Part shown: positions 11,713-27,270 of the stretch, one piece after another | How positions within the stretch are numbered: position 1 is the first letter of the stretch | Layout of the letters: every line of letters begins with the position of its first letter | DNA from: Culicoidibacter larvae | GTDB taxonomy: Bacteria; Bacillota_I; Bacilli_A; Culicoidibacterales; Culicoidibacteraceae | Assembly: GCF_005771635.1 (NCBI RefSeq) | Contig: NZ_VBWP01000003.1 | Location: 186,001 to 250,000 of the forward strand | DNA length: 64,000 bases | Direction: 5' to 3' | Translations under genes and position numbers: made by a program | The notes under the pieces: generated by a model | Database searches by the model: none | What the model saw: the letters and a program-made list of their open reading frames with translations, nothing else | What the model was told of the DNA's origin: nothing

Positions 11713-12324
11713 TTATTGATAAACGTATTTCGACTCAACTAACTTCAAATCAACCAAATAACGATGATCCAAAGTACTGCCGGCTTCAAATGGATAACAC
11801 GTCTGCAGCCGTAAAATCTGCGGTTTAAATTCTGTATCGTGGTCTTCAGTATAAAACTTAACCGCTTCGCTGTCATTAGCCAATACCACTTGCGGCTCTT
11901 TATACACTTCATAAGTAAATTCACCATAAGGCATCTTCAATATAATTGTATCGCCAATTTCAATATTCTTTAGATTCTGAAAAGCTAAATGGCGGTGACC
12001 ATTAATATACAACTTGTTGTTCTGCCCGGGAAAATTATTCCAAGCCTCTAAGCCAACCTCATCAAAATATTGATCCATATATTCGGCATTGTAGCCATAA
12101 ATCAGTGGTACTTCAACATCAAACTTCGGCATATATAAAGTGCCTATTTTTTCATTTTGCTCCGGATTCATAACAATCTCCGGAATCTCTGCCAAGCGCT
12201 GATTCCTAACGCCGCGTTCGGCAATGACTGCACTCCCGCTCATCGCCGGAATCGCAAATACAGCTGCCAGAGCAATACCAAGAGCCAGCACGCCAACTCC
12301 TATAAATACAAGAATTTTCTTCAC
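11713..12324 (-). CDS. Sortase, class D-like
   Basis: A 203-residue transpeptidase with an N-terminal membrane anchor (about 4-27). The catalytic triad is visible: His in INGHRHLAF (about 110), Cys in LQTCYPF (about 178) and Arg in DHRYLVDL near the C terminus. The TCYPF context fits class D sortases better than class A. It attaches LPXTG proteins to the wall. It is the only sortase in this window, so it may serve the LPVTG, LPATG, LPQTG and LPETG proteins, though another elsewhere is likely. The start is GTG at 12324 with a weak AAGGAA site upstream. The gene next upstream on the same strand encodes an LPVTG protein. Confidence 0.88.
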   Translation of the reverse strand: MKKILVFIGVGVLALGIALAAVFAIPAMSGSAVIAERGVRNQRLAEIPEIVMNPEQNEKIGTLYMPKFDVEVPLIYGYNAEYMDQYFDEVGLEAWNNFPGQNNKLYINGHRHLAFQNLKNIEIGDTIILKMPYGEFTYEVYKEPQVVLANDSEAVKFYTEDHDTEFKPQILRLQTCYPFEAGSTLDHRYLVDLKLVESKYVYQ

Positions 12325-12596: not shown

Positions 12597-13994
12597 TTAC
12601 GATTTTTTTCTGATTAGGAAATATGCAGCTGCCGTCACAGCTCCAAGTCCGCCTAATAAACCAAATACCGCAGCGTCATCACCAGTTACTGGCAATCCGC
12701 TAGTGTTTGGTGTGTTACCGTTAGTACCATTAGTTCCTGCTTCATCTGCTGTTGCAGCTTCCACTGGCATAACTGCAATTGCGCTGTCGCTCTTATTGCC
12801 AGCAGTATCAGTTGCATACAGGTAAAGTGTTTCTTCAGCTTTTGCTGCACCGGCAGCAACTACTAAATCAACTGGTCCGGCAATGCCGCTGGCAAGTACA
12901 TCACCATTAGCATTTACAACCGTAATTGTAGCACCTTTTTCAATATCATCAGCATTGATTGTGTAACCAGCTGCTTGAGTACCATTGATTGCATTTACAA
13001 CTGGTGCATCAGGCGCAACAATATCAGCAAAAGTGATTGTTGTTGTATCATGACGATCAGTCCATAATTCGATTGGAATTAAAGCAGGCGTAGTGAATGT
13101 GCCATCCACTTCAACAGTTAAACCATGTGGTGCATAAGTTTTAAAGAAGTCATATTCAGCAGTTAAAGTTGTTGGAAGTATAACTTTAGTTGTGAATTTT
13201 GTTCTGAAATCGCCGATAGATGCAATCAAATCAGCGCCATCTACCAATGAGTGAAGAATCGGTGCCGCAAGAAGATCATAAGCATCTACTACTACATCCC
13301 ACATACTCATAGCAATACTTGAAATAATACCACCCATTACTCCTGGATTGGTAATTTCAAACGTATCAAGAGCTGTACCGATGTTGTTAATGATGTCTCT
13401 AAGAACTTCGGCAATTTTGTCAAATGCATTATCTTCAAAAGTTACCGATAAATAGGCACCGTCTTCAGATACTGTGACTGGTGCATTAAGCGAAAGAACT
13501 GATATGTTATCCCAAATAGTTTTTAAATCTAAAGCCGCATAAATGTCATCAAAGTTAACATTATAGCCAAACAATTCGCTTTCAGCAAGGAATGCTGCAA
13601 GTTTGTCAACGCCGTTATCAATTGTACTAACTAAGTTATTAATTCCTAACTCTTCAAACAATGCCTTAGCAAGTTCATAAGTAATCTCAATTTGCGCATC
13701 GCCATTAGCTTCAATCTTACCAACTAACTCTTCCGGAATTTTGAAAGAAGCTGTTTTACTTTGAACTAATAATCTCAGCTCGTCTTTGGTAAATGCAGAA
13801 AGGGTAAAGTTAATATCATGAGTACCAGTTTCGCTAATTACTGGCTTATCAGATGATAAAGTCGTATCCGACCAAAGAATAATGTCTGTTGCACTTACAC
13901 TTTGTGCAAGTGGAAAGAATGAACCAGCAACAATTACGCTGGCTAAAGCTGCAGATACTAATCCTGCACCCCAAATCTTTTTACTTTTTTTCAT
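12597..13994 (-). CDS. LPXTG-anchored surface protein, probably phase-variable
   Basis: A 465-residue secreted protein with a signal peptide (about 1-36, ending near SVSA) and a large mostly helical region (40-300) that I do not recognise. A bacterial-Ig-like segment follows (about 330-415, DAPVVNAINGTQAAGYTI and YLYATDTAGNKSD). The C-terminal sorting signal is LPVTGDD plus a membrane helix and RKKS tail. GGAGGAT lies 7 nt before the ATG. Only 26 bp separate the ATG from an inverted repeat, so its promoter must overlap or lie beyond that repeat. The neighbouring sortase probably anchors it, and the invertase gene on the other side may switch it. Confidence 0.88.
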   Translation of the reverse strand: MKKSKKIWGAGLVSAALASVIVAGSFFPLAQSVSATDIILWSDTTLSSDKPVISETGTHDINFTLSAFTKDELRLLVQSKTASFKIPEELVGKIEANGDAQIEITYELAKALFEELGINNLVSTIDNGVDKLAAFLAESELFGYNVNFDDIYAALDLKTIWDNISVLSLNAPVTVSEDGAYLSVTFEDNAFDKIAEVLRDIINNIGTALDTFEITNPGVMGGIISSIAMSMWDVVVDAYDLLAAPILHSLVDGADLIASIGDFRTKFTTKVILPTTLTAEYDFFKTYAPHGLTVEVDGTFTTPALIPIELWTDRHDTTTITFADIVAPDAPVVNAINGTQAAGYTINADDIEKGATITVVNANGDVLASGIAGPVDLVVAAGAAKAEETLYLYATDTAGNKSDSAIAVMPVEAATADEAGTNGTNGNTPNTSGLPVTGDDAAVFGLLGGLGAVTAAAYFLIRKKS

Positions 13995-14020
13995 TGTATA
14001 GATCCTCCATTTTCACGTTT

Positions 14021-14161
14021 TACAATAAACACTAGGATATTGGAAATGTGGTGCATCTTTAAAAAAGCGGAGGTTTTCACAGCTATTATTGGATAATTGG
14101 TATCTTTATTTTTTAATAACATGCTACATTTGCAGTTTCCAAAAAATTAGTGTTTATTGTA
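14021..14161. promoter_or_regulatory. Probable invertible promoter segment (26-bp inverted repeats)
   Basis: Two 26-bp sites in inverted orientation, 14021-14046 and 14136-14161, share a perfect 14-bp outer part (TACAATAAACACTA and its complement). They also share a TTGGAAA inner part; 22 of 26 positions match overall. They enclose 89 bp of AT-rich, gene-free DNA. A serine DNA invertase begins 48 bp to the right and a surface-protein gene begins 26 bp to the left. Size, geometry and neighbours match Hin-type invertible promoters. In the sequenced orientation a TTGCAG (14130-14135) points right and I see no good promoter pointing left, which suggests the surface gene is off. The inversion itself is inferred. 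Confidence 0.72.
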
Positions 14162-14209
14162 CACTATAAGTAGTAGGAATGCAAGAAAAAATTTAAAGGA
14201 GTCTTCACT

Positions 14210-14835: not shown

Positions 14836-15447
14836 TTATACTTTCAGCCAAAGTGCCGGACGAACTCCGCCGGTGCACCAGCCATCACTAATATTACCTT
14901 TTAAAATATTATTCCCCTGAATACCGATGTTACCATCAGTACCATGTATATAGGCAGCTTTATTATTCAGACGGCCTGGCGAACGAAGCCACCACCACCA
15001 GTCACCATTTTTATCATAGAGTCTTGCCAAACGCTTACTATTGTTCGCATCTTTTCTTTCAAACCAATATCTTTGATTCTTTTTAGGGTTCTGCAGCAAC
15101 ATAGTACTGTCGCCAAAATATTTGCACACTTCTTCAAGACTTAATAAGAATATATAGTCTTCAGTATCAACTCCGCCATTAGTACCATACCACTGATTAT
15201 CGACATTTTTATTAGTGACTGGAATAATCCGCTGCTGCTCCGTGTCGGTGAATTTCTCGAAAAATTCACCGTTAAGATATTTTCGCAACGAGCAATCCGC
15301 CCAAGTAATATCTTCGTAGGCATCGTGATAAGAACGTTGATCAATGATGACTTCAGTGACAAGTAAGAGCGCGTCATCTTTTTTATCAAGAATACGCCAC
15401 TCATAGCCACCAAAGGAAATATTAGAATTAATTGTAAAGTCTTGCAT
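14836..15447 (-). CDS. DUF6273 domain protein
   Basis: A 203-residue protein without a signal peptide. It carries the DUF6273 hallmarks: an N-terminal GGYEWRILDK core, WADCSLRKYLNGEFF, a WWWWLRSPG motif and the closing GGVRPALWL. Function is unknown; the fold is related to formylglycine-generating/C-type-lectin-like domains by the look of the motif order, which is an inference. It follows the MerR-family gene with a 1-bp gap and has AAGGAG before the ATG, so the two are co-translated and this may be the regulator's target or partner. Confidence 0.8.
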   Translation of the reverse strand: MQDFTINSNISFGGYEWRILDKKDDALLLVTEVIIDQRSYHDAYEDITWADCSLRKYLNGEFFEKFTDTEQQRIIPVTNKNVDNQWYGTNGGVDTEDYIFLLSLEEVCKYFGDSTMLLQNPKKNQRYWFERKDANNSKRLARLYDKNGDWWWWLRSPGRLNNKAAYIHGTDGNIGIQGNNILKGNISDGWCTGGVRPALWLKV

Positions 15448-21978: not shown

Positions 21979-24900
21979 TTATCTTTTATTCAGTTTTCGG
22001 TAAACACCGAGTCCTAATCCTACAAGTACCAGCCCTGCAAGAAGCATTTCAAAACTATTCATTCCGGTAGCCGGAAGACTGTCAGCTTCTTTTGGATTAG
22101 CATAAAGTTCAATTTGAATATTAGTATTCAAAGTAACAACATTTTCATTATAAGTCGTTACCGTACTGCTTGCTGTACTCGCCGCTACCGGCTCGTCAAC
22201 ATAAACATTAGCAATATATGTTCCTGCAGTCGTAATCTGACTGAATGAATCCCATTGCAGATACACTTGATCCACGGCTTCGCCGCTTTCATCATTCCAT
22301 GCACGCGCATTACTGCGGCTTAAAACTTCTTGTTCAAGCGTTCCTTGATTCACTAAGTCTCTAAACTCATCAATACTCATGCTAATATTATTAGCATCAA
22401 TTTGCCAAACACCATCAGCAATCAAGTCTTGCCAGTCGGCGATTAAGGTTAATCCGCCTGCCGGCATAGTGATTGTGCCGCTGTAACCTGTATCTGTCGC
22501 ATCTTTCCAACCAAGGAATTTGTGTCCGAACCAGGTTGGTGCAGTGACTGCGTCTAGGTCGACTGTGCTGTCAGTTACTTGAATGATATCTGCTGGTTGG
22601 GTAGCTATGTTACCACCATTCACATCGAAAGTGATGGTTTGGTCTAACGCCGTCCAGTGTGCTTCCAACGCAAGTCCTCCTGCTGGAACGGTTACTACAC
22701 CAGTGTATTCTGTACTGCCCACAAACCAACCATCAAATTGATAGCCAGGACGTGTTGTAGTTACGGTATCTAAATCAACTGTTGTATCAGTTTTCGCAGT
22801 GATAGATGCAACACCTGTTCCACCTTTGGTGTTAAAACTGATTACTTGGTCATCGGCTGTCCATTTCGCTTTAAGGCTTAATCCGCCAACCGGCATTGTG
22901 AATGTGCCACTGTGTTGTGTGTCAGCACTGTCGAACCATCCGACAAAAGTATAGCCGGCTCTTGTTGGTATTGCTACAGCATCTAAGTCAACACTGCTAT
23001 CAGTTGGTTGAACTAAGTTCGCTGGTTTACTTGTTCCTAGTCCACCATTCACATCAAAGGTAATCGTTTGGTCGTCAGCAGTAAACTGTGCGTATAATGT
23101 TTTGTTTGACGCTGGCATCTTGCTAGTCGCGAAGTTCCACTTTGTACCAGCAGTTGCAGCATCAAACCAACCACTGAATGTATAACCAGATTTAGTTGGT
23201 ACTGTTGCTGGTTCTACTACTAATGCATCATAGGCAACCGTTTGCGTACTTGTTGTCCCCTGATCGTTAAATGTCAGTGTGTACTTATTTCTTGTATATT
23301 GAGCATATAATGTTTTGTTTGATGCTGGCATTTTGTTAGTTGCGAAGTTCCACTTCGTACCACCAGTTTGAGCATCAAACCAACCTGCAAAGGTAAACCC
23401 AGTTTTCGTTGGTGCTGTTGGCTCAGTTGCTAATGTATCATAAACAACGGTTTGGGTAGTTGTCGCACCATCATTATCAAAAGTCATCGTATAACTATTG
23501 ATTGTGAATTGCGCATATAGCTTCACGGCATTCGCTGGCATTTTACTGGTCGCAAAGTTCCATTGTGTACCACCAGTCGCAGCTGTAAACCACCCAGTAA
23601 ATGTATATCCGGTTTTTGCTGCATCAGCAGGTTTCGTTGCTAATGTATCGAATGCCACTTGTTCATCAGCAGGTTTGGTACTTGTTGCCCCATTAGTCGC
23701 TACATCATAGCTTAGTACATATTTATTAGCTGTATATTGTGCATATAATGTTACATCAGTTGTCCCCACTGTGTATGGGAAGGTTACTTTTGAACCACCG
23801 GTTGCTGCGGTGAACCAGCCATTGAATGTATGTCCGGTTTTTACTGCACCTTGTTCAGTAGCAATCGCTTCTCCTGGATATTTACTTAATGTTTCATCGG
23901 CTACAGAACCGCCGCCAGCATTGAATGTTACTACAATCGGCGTAATAATTCCGGCATCTATTTTGTCGCTGCCAACTGCACTCGGCGTAAATCCGGCAGC
24001 TGTTGCTTTATCGTGAGTGGCAGTCGCCGTAGGCGTGCTGCCGCCGCTAGTTACCGGTGAGAACCGGGTTGTGTCATCGCTATTTGGATTGGTAAAAACA
24101 ATATCTACATTTTGTGCCTTATCTAATCCCATGAAAGCGTAACTGCCGACAGCCCCGTTAATTGTTTGTGTCGTCGTTGTTTCGATGACAGTTGTTGTCC
24201 CCGCTTCAAGGGCAACAACTGTCACCCCATTACGCCCGGTTTCTCCAGCATCTTTTAAACCGTTACGGTTAGTATCATTAAATACTTGGCCTTTTACCAC
24301 TCCGGTCTTGAGGCGAATCGCAATCGGTTCACTTGGTTTGTAACCTGCTGTTCCCATGATTTCACGGTGAATACGTGCTGAGTAGATATTTGTCAGCCCG
24401 GCATGTGAGTCAGCATCTGGATCAGTCAGTGCTAATGGGAAGGTAATTGCTTCACTGAAACCATCAGCTACAGTATCATTAGTCGTAATTTTAATCATAC
24501 GAATTTCATTTGGATCAGTGATTGCGCTCCAAGGTACAAAGGCTGCCGAATCCTTATCCGTCTCGTAAGTTGTTGCATAGAGTACTTGGTAGCTCAATGA
24601 ACCCGTGGCAGTAACCGGCGTCAATAGCGAAGCCGTCCAAGTAAATGCTTCTTTTTGAAGGTGAACACTCGGGTCAAATGCACTTGGGGTACTTGGAGTT
24701 AAATCGGTCGCTTCCCCCGCTTTTGGAATCGGGACAAGCGCAGTATAGCCATTGATTGTGCTTCCTGAGTTATTTGAAACCGTTAATTGATATTTAGCTG
24801 TTCCTTCAGGATTCAAGTCAATAATGGATTGATTAGTTGCGTAATCATAGCTTACCCACGCGCCATCATTTAAGTTAGCGGCACTGGTAACAGTAAAGTC

Positions 24901-27270
24901 TTTTTGCGCCTGAATTTTCATGGCGCTGTCACGATTTAATGTACCCATTAAGTCGGTAGTTAGACCGCTACTGTCAACATCATATTTATTAGGATTGTTA
25001 AAGTATGACGCATTCCCGCTTGTAGTCACTTTTGTTGCACCAAGAGGTTTTACATAAATAAGCTCGTTACCGGGAATAGAAACTGTTGGTGCACTGTTCT
25101 TCACCTTAAAATCGTAAACAACTGAAAAAGTATAATTCTTTGCCTGGTCAGACATAAATCCAACTTTTAATGTGGGTATCGTTAACTTATAAACTTGGTG
25201 TCCATCACTATCTGTTGTTTTTACAGGAACGATTGTCCCGTCACTGGTTTTATAGATAGTTCCATCACTAGAAATAATTTGTAAGGTTGAGGTGTCGATT
25301 TGCAAATAATCAGTTTCACGCAAGAAAATATCTAACCCTTGCTGATAGGTTTTAGTTGGATAAGCTGAAATTCCCATCTGACCATACAAGCCAAACCAAG
25401 CATTCATCGAATAAGTATTTCCCGCCAAATATGAATTATTAGAAAGATTGTGCGAACTGGTAAACAAAACCCGACCATCATTTTTGATAGTAATCACCGG
25501 TGTATATTGCTTAGCATTTACACCATCAAAATCTCCATCTGCTGTCTCAACCACCGATACTTTAAAAGAATGTTTCATATCAGCTGGTTTATTTAAAAAG
25601 TGCCCATAGAAAATGGTTGGAATACTTTCAAATGTACCAAGACTTTCTGCACCATTACCAATCCCATAACCACTTGCAAACCCCGTAGATTCATAAGTAA
25701 CCTCAGTAATGTATTCAGTGCTATCACTGGTATAATTGCTTAATGCAATACTTCCATATCTGCTGGCCGTAACAGAAGTTGTCCCCAAAGTGGCGGCAGT
25801 ATATGTGTTACCTTTATTGGTTTTAATTACAACATTAGTTAACGTTGCTCCAGCGGCATTCCCAGCTGCTAGGCGGACATATCGCACACCAATATTCGGA
25901 TCATTAAATTCAATCCGGAAACTTTGATCAGTCACTGTCTCTACATATGAATTTGATACATGATAACCACCAAGTAATACTAAATCTTCTCCACTCGTAT
26001 TATCAAATGTTACTGTTGGATTTAATAAAGCACCGATATCAACAATATTTTTAAATGGTTTAGCTACATTTAAAGTAATTATATGACTTGATCCAGTAGA
26101 AGCTGTTGCCGTATTATAAGGATAAATAACTGAACTGGTTGATCTTATTGCATAGGATTCACCGGCAACAATTCCATTGCCTGGTAAAAAGTTTAATTTT
26201 ATTCGTGTTCTTGAGTTTGGTGTAGCAAGATATACACCTTTATAGGTTATTGTTACTAAATCGTTAAGCGGATCGCTGCTTCTATCCACTGACCACTCCA
26301 ACTGAGCATCTGTTAATGTACTTGATGGATGTTTTTCAACATCAACAAACCCTAATTTTTTATCAACTTTGATTGTATAAGAAGCACTATCAAATAATAG
26401 ATTATTGCCAATTGTATTTGCATATGAAGAACCATTTCCCCATAAATAGTATTCTGCTGAAAAAGCAGTATTAGCCGCAATATTCACGTTCGGTGTTCCA
26501 TAATATAATAATGGAGAAACTGAACCAGTAATAGTATAATTTTCTATTTTTTCTTCGTTAATTGTTGTCGCCGCTCCGGAGATATCCGCTACAGTCTTAA
26601 CTGTTACTAAATCAGTAAAAGTCTTACTCCCGGTATTAACTGAAAAAGCTGTATCTAAAGCCAGCGATAATTCCAAAGTGACTGCTGTCGTTCCCGGTGC
26701 AATATCAAATACCAGTTCACCACTTTGTGGTTTGTAGCCATAAATTGCTGCATCTGGAGTAAATGTTGCATTAGTAATAATACCTTGCAATTGTGTTGGT
26801 AAATTACTGGCATTAAATGACCAACTCGCGTATCCGCTGCCGAAAGTCATCCCCGGAATACCACGGAATCCAATCCCATTTTCAAGACGAATTTTGATTT
26901 GACGATTCTCCGTAGCAGTCGAACCGTCAAAAACTGCTTTTACCAATAAAGTTCGGGCAATCATTTGCGCATCACGAACATCATAAGATACTGAAGTATC
27001 GCCATCTAAATCAACACCATCAAAGCTGGCAAAACCAACCGAGAAAGGTGTAGCTTTCGCCATCAGCGGTGCCGGCTCTGCGGCAGCGCTGATTTCAGTT
27101 TCTTCTTCGACATTCTCCCCTGTCTCAGAATTATTAACGCTTGAATTCGCTTCTGTTTGTTGCTCATTTTCAGCACTTAAATCAGTCGCAAACACATTTA
27201 AGTTCATTTGCGACAGTACTAATAAAGTTGTTACTAAAACTAGACAACTTGCTTTTATAAATTTTTTCAT
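21979..27270 (-). CDS. Giant LPXTG surface protein with SdrD B-type domain and InlB B-repeats
   Basis: This 1763-residue wall protein has a signal peptide (1-29), an acidic linker and a long beta-rich region (about 80-980) that looks like adhesin repeats of the DUF11/isopeptide kind. An SdrD B-like calcium-binding domain follows (about 985-1100, [17 protein letters not shown]). Seven tandem Listeria-Bacteroides B-repeats (about 1110-1613, each with GYTFxGWF and LYAQYT-like ends) come next. The sorting signal is LPATGMNS with a membrane helix and RKLNKR tail. Repeats 1-4 and 5-7 form two subtypes. GGGGGAAAA precedes the ATG. It is probably an adhesin; the ligand is unknown. A two-component system lies directly upstream on the same strand. 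Confidence 0.9.
22432..23940 (-). repeat. Seven tandem B-repeat units within the surface-protein gene
   Basis: About 200-bp units encode the InlB-type B-repeats. Four units carry a [20 protein letters not shown] core ending LYAQ(Y/F)T, and three carry a [11 protein letters not shown] core ending in LxAxW(T/Q). The near-identical units could recombine and change the protein's length. Confidence 0.8.

Follow-up and report, generated by a model that had tools for sequence, protein, structure and literature searches.

A predicted DNA-inversion switch with its own serine recombinase at an adhesin gene of Culicoidibacter larvae

Inverted repeats between an adhesin gene and a recombinase gene

In Culicoidibacter larvae, a gene for a secreted surface protein and a gene for a serine recombinase are separated by a short non-coding region with an imperfect inverted repeat. 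Is this region a recombinase-operated switch, and if so, how would flipping of the DNA act on the adhesin gene? We analyzed a 64-kb stretch around the locus (the window), the whole 2.5-Mb genome and related loci of other bacteria. The features recognized are listed in Table 1. As the best full explanation we propose a self-contained DNA-inversion switch of the adhesin gene, with a probability of about 0.7; that the locus is a dedicated recombinase switch seems highly likely on sequence grounds.

As shown by inverted-repeat analysis, two arms of 26 nt each (14021-14046 and 14136-14161) are 85% complementary and separated by a gap of 89 nt. This is the geometry described in a previous, sequence-only reading of the window, including a 14-bp perfect stretch and a TTGGAAA block, and the flanking distances given there also hold, with the invertase gene starting 48 bp from the repeat and the LPXTG gene 26 bp away. 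The pair was the sole inverted repeat in the 64 kb with at least 22 of 26 matching positions and a gap of 20-220 bp, while five simulated 64-kb sequences matched for dinucleotide make-up contained no repeats of at least 22/26. The functional borders are better set at 14019-14046 and 14136-14163, which gives two 28-bp dyads of 13+2+13 bp. Their shared 2-bp centre is CT, with 117 bp from one centre to the other. Their inner half-sites are weak and one is devoid of a near-invariant C. When the whole 2.5-Mb genome was scanned for the site pattern, zero mismatches were obtained only at the window pair and three mismatches at one other place; no extra copies of the pair were found elsewhere in the genome.

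Table 1. Features of the window locus and of the second invertase locus of the same genome
Feature	Position	Strand	Description
Sortase gene downstream of the adhesin gene	11713..12324	-	class D-like, below NCBIfam cut-off
Presumed target gene, 465-aa secreted surface protein	12597..13994	-	pAdhesive_17 (PF20609), weak Big_6 match, C-terminal LPVTG sorting signal
Adhesin ribosome-binding site GGAGG	14004..14008	-	between left site and ATG; read from sequence
Left crossover site, predicted	14019..14046	+	TTTACAATAAACA-CT-AGGATATTGGAAA; repeat analysis and site models
Segment predicted to invert	14034..14148	.	117 bp centre to centre; adhesin mRNA leader under the favoured model
Right crossover site, predicted, inverted	14136..14163	-	TGTACAATAAACA-CT-AATTTTTTGGAAA read on the - strand; repeat analysis and site models
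Candidate fixed adhesin promoter	14156..14184	-	-35 TTGCAT (14184-14179), 17 bp, -10 TACAAT (14161-14156) in outer half of right site; flank-shuffle p = 0.039
Serine recombinase gene, 191 aa	14210..14785	+	PF00239 and C-terminal HTH; R8, S10, KLDRIAR conserved; nearest solved structure Gin
Second own invertase locus (L045)	G000:C1:1-303		site pair 116 bp apart, centre AT; 0/300 shuffles; leader terminator toward surface-like ORF

The link between a sortase-anchored protein and the switch, also proposed previously, is upheld by homologous loci that repeat the arrangement. The proposal of a class D-like sortase beside the adhesin gene stands in part: a sortase is present on the same strand, but its class D scores in NCBIfam are sub-threshold. 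The term "antigenic switch" exceeds the evidence; the layout allows ON/OFF control of one adhesin, and such control of the adhesin gene is very probably what the locus would provide. At 21979-27270 the window also encodes a secreted protein of 1763 aa; it is of the LPXTG type (LPATG) and has numerous repeated surface-protein modules.

The recombinase and its relatives

The recombinase has a catalytic domain with Arg8, Ser10 and the DR-x-x-R motif, followed by a C-terminal HTH (PF00239, 2e-40; HTH_psq, 2.4e-8), and its R8, S10 and KLDRIAR align with those of Gin and relatives. Structure matches were obtained at 3.5e-34 for Gin vs. 2e-21 for gamma-delta resolvase and 8e-12 for Sin. The PHROG DNA invertase match was at 3.3e-61, and the score for NCBIfam NF009949, the model for Mpi of Bacteroides, was 65 vs. 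a cut-off of 272. The earlier claim of a full-length Hin-type invertase dedicated to the locus is supported; the gene is intact and Gin/Hin-like, with its catalytic residues kept. Since small serine recombinases serve as resolvases too, and some members of this family are plasmid-borne, the repeats could instead be res accessory subsites of a resolvase acting on multimers or transposon cointegrates. We regard this as very improbable indeed: the nearest structures are Gin, the sites are inverted and have identical centres, no transposase was recognized among the ORFs at 6-22 kb, and the context is that of a chromosomal surface gene.

In the tree, the switch recombinases, including that of the window, form one clade (94/78), in which the two copies of C. 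larvae are sisters (100/99). In contrast to the structure matches, the tree leaves Gin/PinE outside this clade as well as the Tn3 resolvases, and the nearest outgroup of the clade consists of two staphylococcal plasmid recombinases. The closest recombinases were the second copy in the same genome (55%), those of Vagococcus allomyrinae (50%) and those of Enterococcus plasmids (50-52%). V. allomyrinae has nine such recombinases in five cassettes, and additional ones occur in other members of its family. A search through 395 genomes from the class and 392 from the phylum yielded no further close recombinase, and in viral contigs neither the window recombinase nor that of Enterococcus sp. LX10 had close relatives. 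Directly convergent with the invertase gene of the window lies a gene for a DUF6273 protein (14836-15447).

A model of the crossover sites

The 13+2+13 bp dyad was recognized by inspecting Enterococcus repeats. With a matrix built from two Enterococcus cassettes only, the window sites ranked 10th and 28th among 63,973 positions, and with a matrix trained on all other loci, the window left out, they ranked 3rd and 15th. Scanned over the window at a threshold of 5 bits, the latter matrix returned the pair described here and no other, and when the window region was shuffled, 0/500 sequences reached the pair score. Using leave-one-out matrices, each of ten loci beat 500/500 shuffles; the second own locus and L049 (spacing of 105 bp), for which the matrix of the ten loci was used, beat 300/300. 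Of 40 half-sites, 38 have T at position 3 and 39 have C at position 12, so that both positions are near-invariant. A site pair is present upstream of related recombinases in 12 of the 14 regions; at L047 and L050 no convincing pair was found. The site model detected no comparable pair upstream of the gene in nine regions used as controls (those of Tn3 resolvases, plasmid resolvases, Gin and PinE), with scores of at most 6.6 vs. 13.9-36.6 for the ten left-out family loci, and the absence of the pair from Tn3-type and plasmid resolvase controls is a further argument against res subsites. The claim of paired recombination sites is supported by these results, as homologous loci elsewhere show the same arrangement; a search of related genomes for the same repeats, suggested in the previous reading, showed that relatives carry the same kind of pair, with matching centres and 10-12 helical turns apart.

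Equal centres within a locus are what strand exchange needs. When a centre match was not required, the chosen pair still had identical centres in 11/12 loci, with an expectation of 1 in 16; the centre-matched pair of L049 is not the top pair once the centre is ignored. The centre dinucleotide is CT at the window and AT, AC or AA at other loci. Centre-to-centre spacings of the 12 loci (104, 105, 106, 116, 116, 117, 126, 127, 127, 128, 128 and 129 bp) cluster at 104-106, 116-117 and 126-129 bp, close to 10, 11 and 12 helical turns (Rayleigh test at 10.5 bp, p ~3e-4, the related loci not being independent).

Helical phasing also fits a repression loop, and the repeats could be operators, with a recombinase-like protein or another regulator bound to both of them and the DNA loop repressing the promoter without any inversion. 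The position of a -10 element within a site (see below) would be in line with this. Moreover, we found no inverted copy of a segment: 12/12 comparable Enterococcus records (10 of one type, 2 of another) are in one orientation and collinear with the query. This favors operators as well; flips may be infrequent or biased to one state, or may not take place. Yet, centres that match within a locus and differ between loci (CT, AT, AC, AA) correspond to the need of strand exchange and not to operators, and the catalytic R8, S10 and KLDRIAR are retained. We therefore consider operators quite unlikely and retain the inversion switch as the preferred reading.

Surface operons in related cassettes

In most of the cassettes examined (Vagococcaceae, Enterococcus plasmids and the second own locus) the recombinase gene and a surface operon are divergently oriented. 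These operons comprise WxL/LPXTG/DUF916 genes, TasA-like genes with a SipW-like signal peptidase, or LPXTG and MucBP proteins. The layout deviates at L048, where the divergent neighbor is Mga-like, at L047, with a convergent surface operon, and at L021, where the sites and the recombinase gene are separated by an HTH gene. The invertase gene of the second own locus starts 303 bp from a contig end, opposite an ORF with a signal-peptide-like start that is truncated by the contig end.

Several cassettes contain a second, active-looking recombinase in tandem. In several cassettes of V. allomyrinae, the presumably controlled surface operon begins with a gene for a recombinase-like protein in which the catalytic serine is replaced by N or E (L039:5955-6533(-), L040:5794-6432(-) and L042:5504-6073(-); PF00239 at 2.4e-9, 1.2e-7 and 3.6e-8), and L041:8215-8748(-) probably encodes another. 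Such serine-less paralogues may be inactive regulators of the switch.

Position of the promoter and the leader

Six Vagococcaceae loci have an identical TTGACA-17-TAAACT promoter over the outer border of the right site, reading through the segment toward the surface operon, with the -10 inside the far site; this pattern was drawn from two related species only. The sequence from the -35 to the site varies between these loci although the promoter is identical, and flank shuffles reach its score in 0-1.3% of cases. A similarly placed but weaker candidate, marginally better than chance, is present at the window (Table 1), and the second own locus has TTGCAT-17-TAAATT (p = 0.07); a stricter consensus scan reported no promoter in the window region. 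If the promoter is fixed outside and reads through the segment, the flipped DNA is an mRNA leader.

In the classical design of the Hin, fim and Mpi switches the invertible segment itself holds the promoter, and flipping would aim it at the adhesin gene or away from it, as the previous reading had suggested for this locus. Weak candidates do occur inside the segment. As sequenced, there is TTGGAA-18-TATTAA with an extended -10 (score of 5.0), but its -35 falls in the right site. In the inverted state we found TTCACA-19-TATCTT (7.5) and TTGGAT-17-TTTAAT (5.3), the strand scored here having one wrong junction base. The boundary promoter of the window, with a score of 7.3, is about level with the best inside candidate. 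Comparison with the six related loci, in which a strong, invariant promoter lies outside the segment, speaks against an inside promoter and for one beyond the far repeat with its -10 in that repeat. We thus rate an invertible promoter as rather unlikely; given a switch, a fixed promoter with an invertible leader is the arrangement that we moderately favor.

In 9/12 loci as sequenced, including the second own locus, a significant intrinsic terminator is directed toward the surface operon, and inverting the segment generally weakens or abolishes these leader terminators (Wilcoxon p = 0.014). The terminator scan gave no convincing intrinsic terminator in either orientation of the window segment and thus lends no preference to the previous suggestion that the sequenced orientation may be OFF; a terminator as the effector at this locus is doubtful. 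The predicted folding energy of the window leader is -30.6 kcal/mol when inverted vs. -21.8 kcal/mol as sequenced. When the region was searched for known RNA families, the sole hits were two microRNA matches that lay far below threshold and are attributable to chance. We also considered anti-Shine-Dalgarno switching, in which ACCTCC of the leader as sequenced could pair with the GGAGG ribosome-binding site. This candidate was rejected, as the duplex energy of -11.1 is unremarkable (5% of shuffles reach -12.0) and the accessibility of the ribosome-binding site is not unusual either.

Proposed mechanism and comparison with known switches

Based on the sequence data, we infer the following course of events. 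The serine invertase would bind the two 28-bp sites, which would be paired across a loop of 11 helical turns. It would then cut at the shared CT centre, and rejoining would reverse the 117-bp segment. The adhesin promoter would probably stay put: located beyond the right site, with the -10 within that site, it would read leftward. The mRNA leader would begin with the flipped segment, the orientation of which would set the passage of RNA polymerase or ribosomes, one orientation presumably being ON for adhesin expression.

The recombinase of the Clostridioides difficile cwpV switch, RecV, is a tyrosine recombinase acting at several loci, and Mpi of Bacteroides is a serine recombinase acting on many distant promoters. 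The window locus would share with Mpi a serine recombinase, small invertible segments and surface traits, but has one site pair of its kind in the genome. The nearest mechanism appears to be that of cwpV, which the proposed switch resembles. CwpV is a phase-variable cell-wall protein. Its gene has the promoter ahead of 195 bp of invertible DNA, which separate imperfect 21-bp inverted repeats, and an intrinsic terminator was proposed in the OFF-orientation transcript (PMC2784873). Under the favored model both have a fixed upstream promoter, an invertible leader between imperfect inverted repeats and a surface gene downstream. In contrast to cwpV, the window has a dedicated adjacent serine invertase, 28-bp sites 117 bp apart, a candidate -10 in a site and no clear terminator. 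With Hin of Salmonella and Gin of phage Mu the locus shares the protein family, the domain order, the invertase gene beside the segment and a pair of inverted dyad sites (26-28 bp, 2-bp centre). In the case of Hin, a stretch of about 1 kb flanked by 26-bp sites is inverted together with the promoter that it carries, and a 65-bp Fis-bound enhancer is used (PMC3798978). The window segment, in turn, measures about 117 bp. To our knowledge, Fis is not to be expected in Bacillota.

What would be new here is the serine invertase together with a very short phased segment and a candidate promoter element within a site. In the full-text literature outside subscription sources, we found no description of serine-invertase/surface-operon cassettes. 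Tentatively, and with less confidence than in the switch itself, we suggest that Bacillota have portable switches for surface operons of a class not described before. These would have their own invertase, helically phased 28-bp sites whose outer half provides the -10 of a fixed promoter, a flipped leader terminator, differing centres that prevent recombination across cassettes and, in some Vagococcus cassettes, feedback by a dead recombinase paralogue. If true, several Bacillota families toggle adhesins and WxL-type surface operons by one-gene cassettes. Phase-variable surface proteins could then be searched for by the half-site TKTANAAWAAACW, two per 2-bp centre, in inverted site pairs 10-12 turns apart. 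Such cassettes would parallel the leader switch of cwpV, with a serine recombinase as the enzyme, and would extend inversion to segments near 100 bp, far below the 1 kb of Hin.

A decayed paralogue of the adhesin locus

An adhesin paralogue at G000:C1:364351-365245 (L002/L013) is shortened and has a related upstream region (70% identity). It has no LPXTG and no adjacent invertase, and its sites are decayed, although a CTCC block like the ACCTCC of the window leader is retained. It is probably the relic of a second cassette. Upstream of this paralogue (about 1491-1512 of L002) lies a strong palindrome, TATAGTGTACATTTACACTATA, half of which is kept in the window (TATAGTGTA) beside the right site; it is possibly the operator of some regulator.
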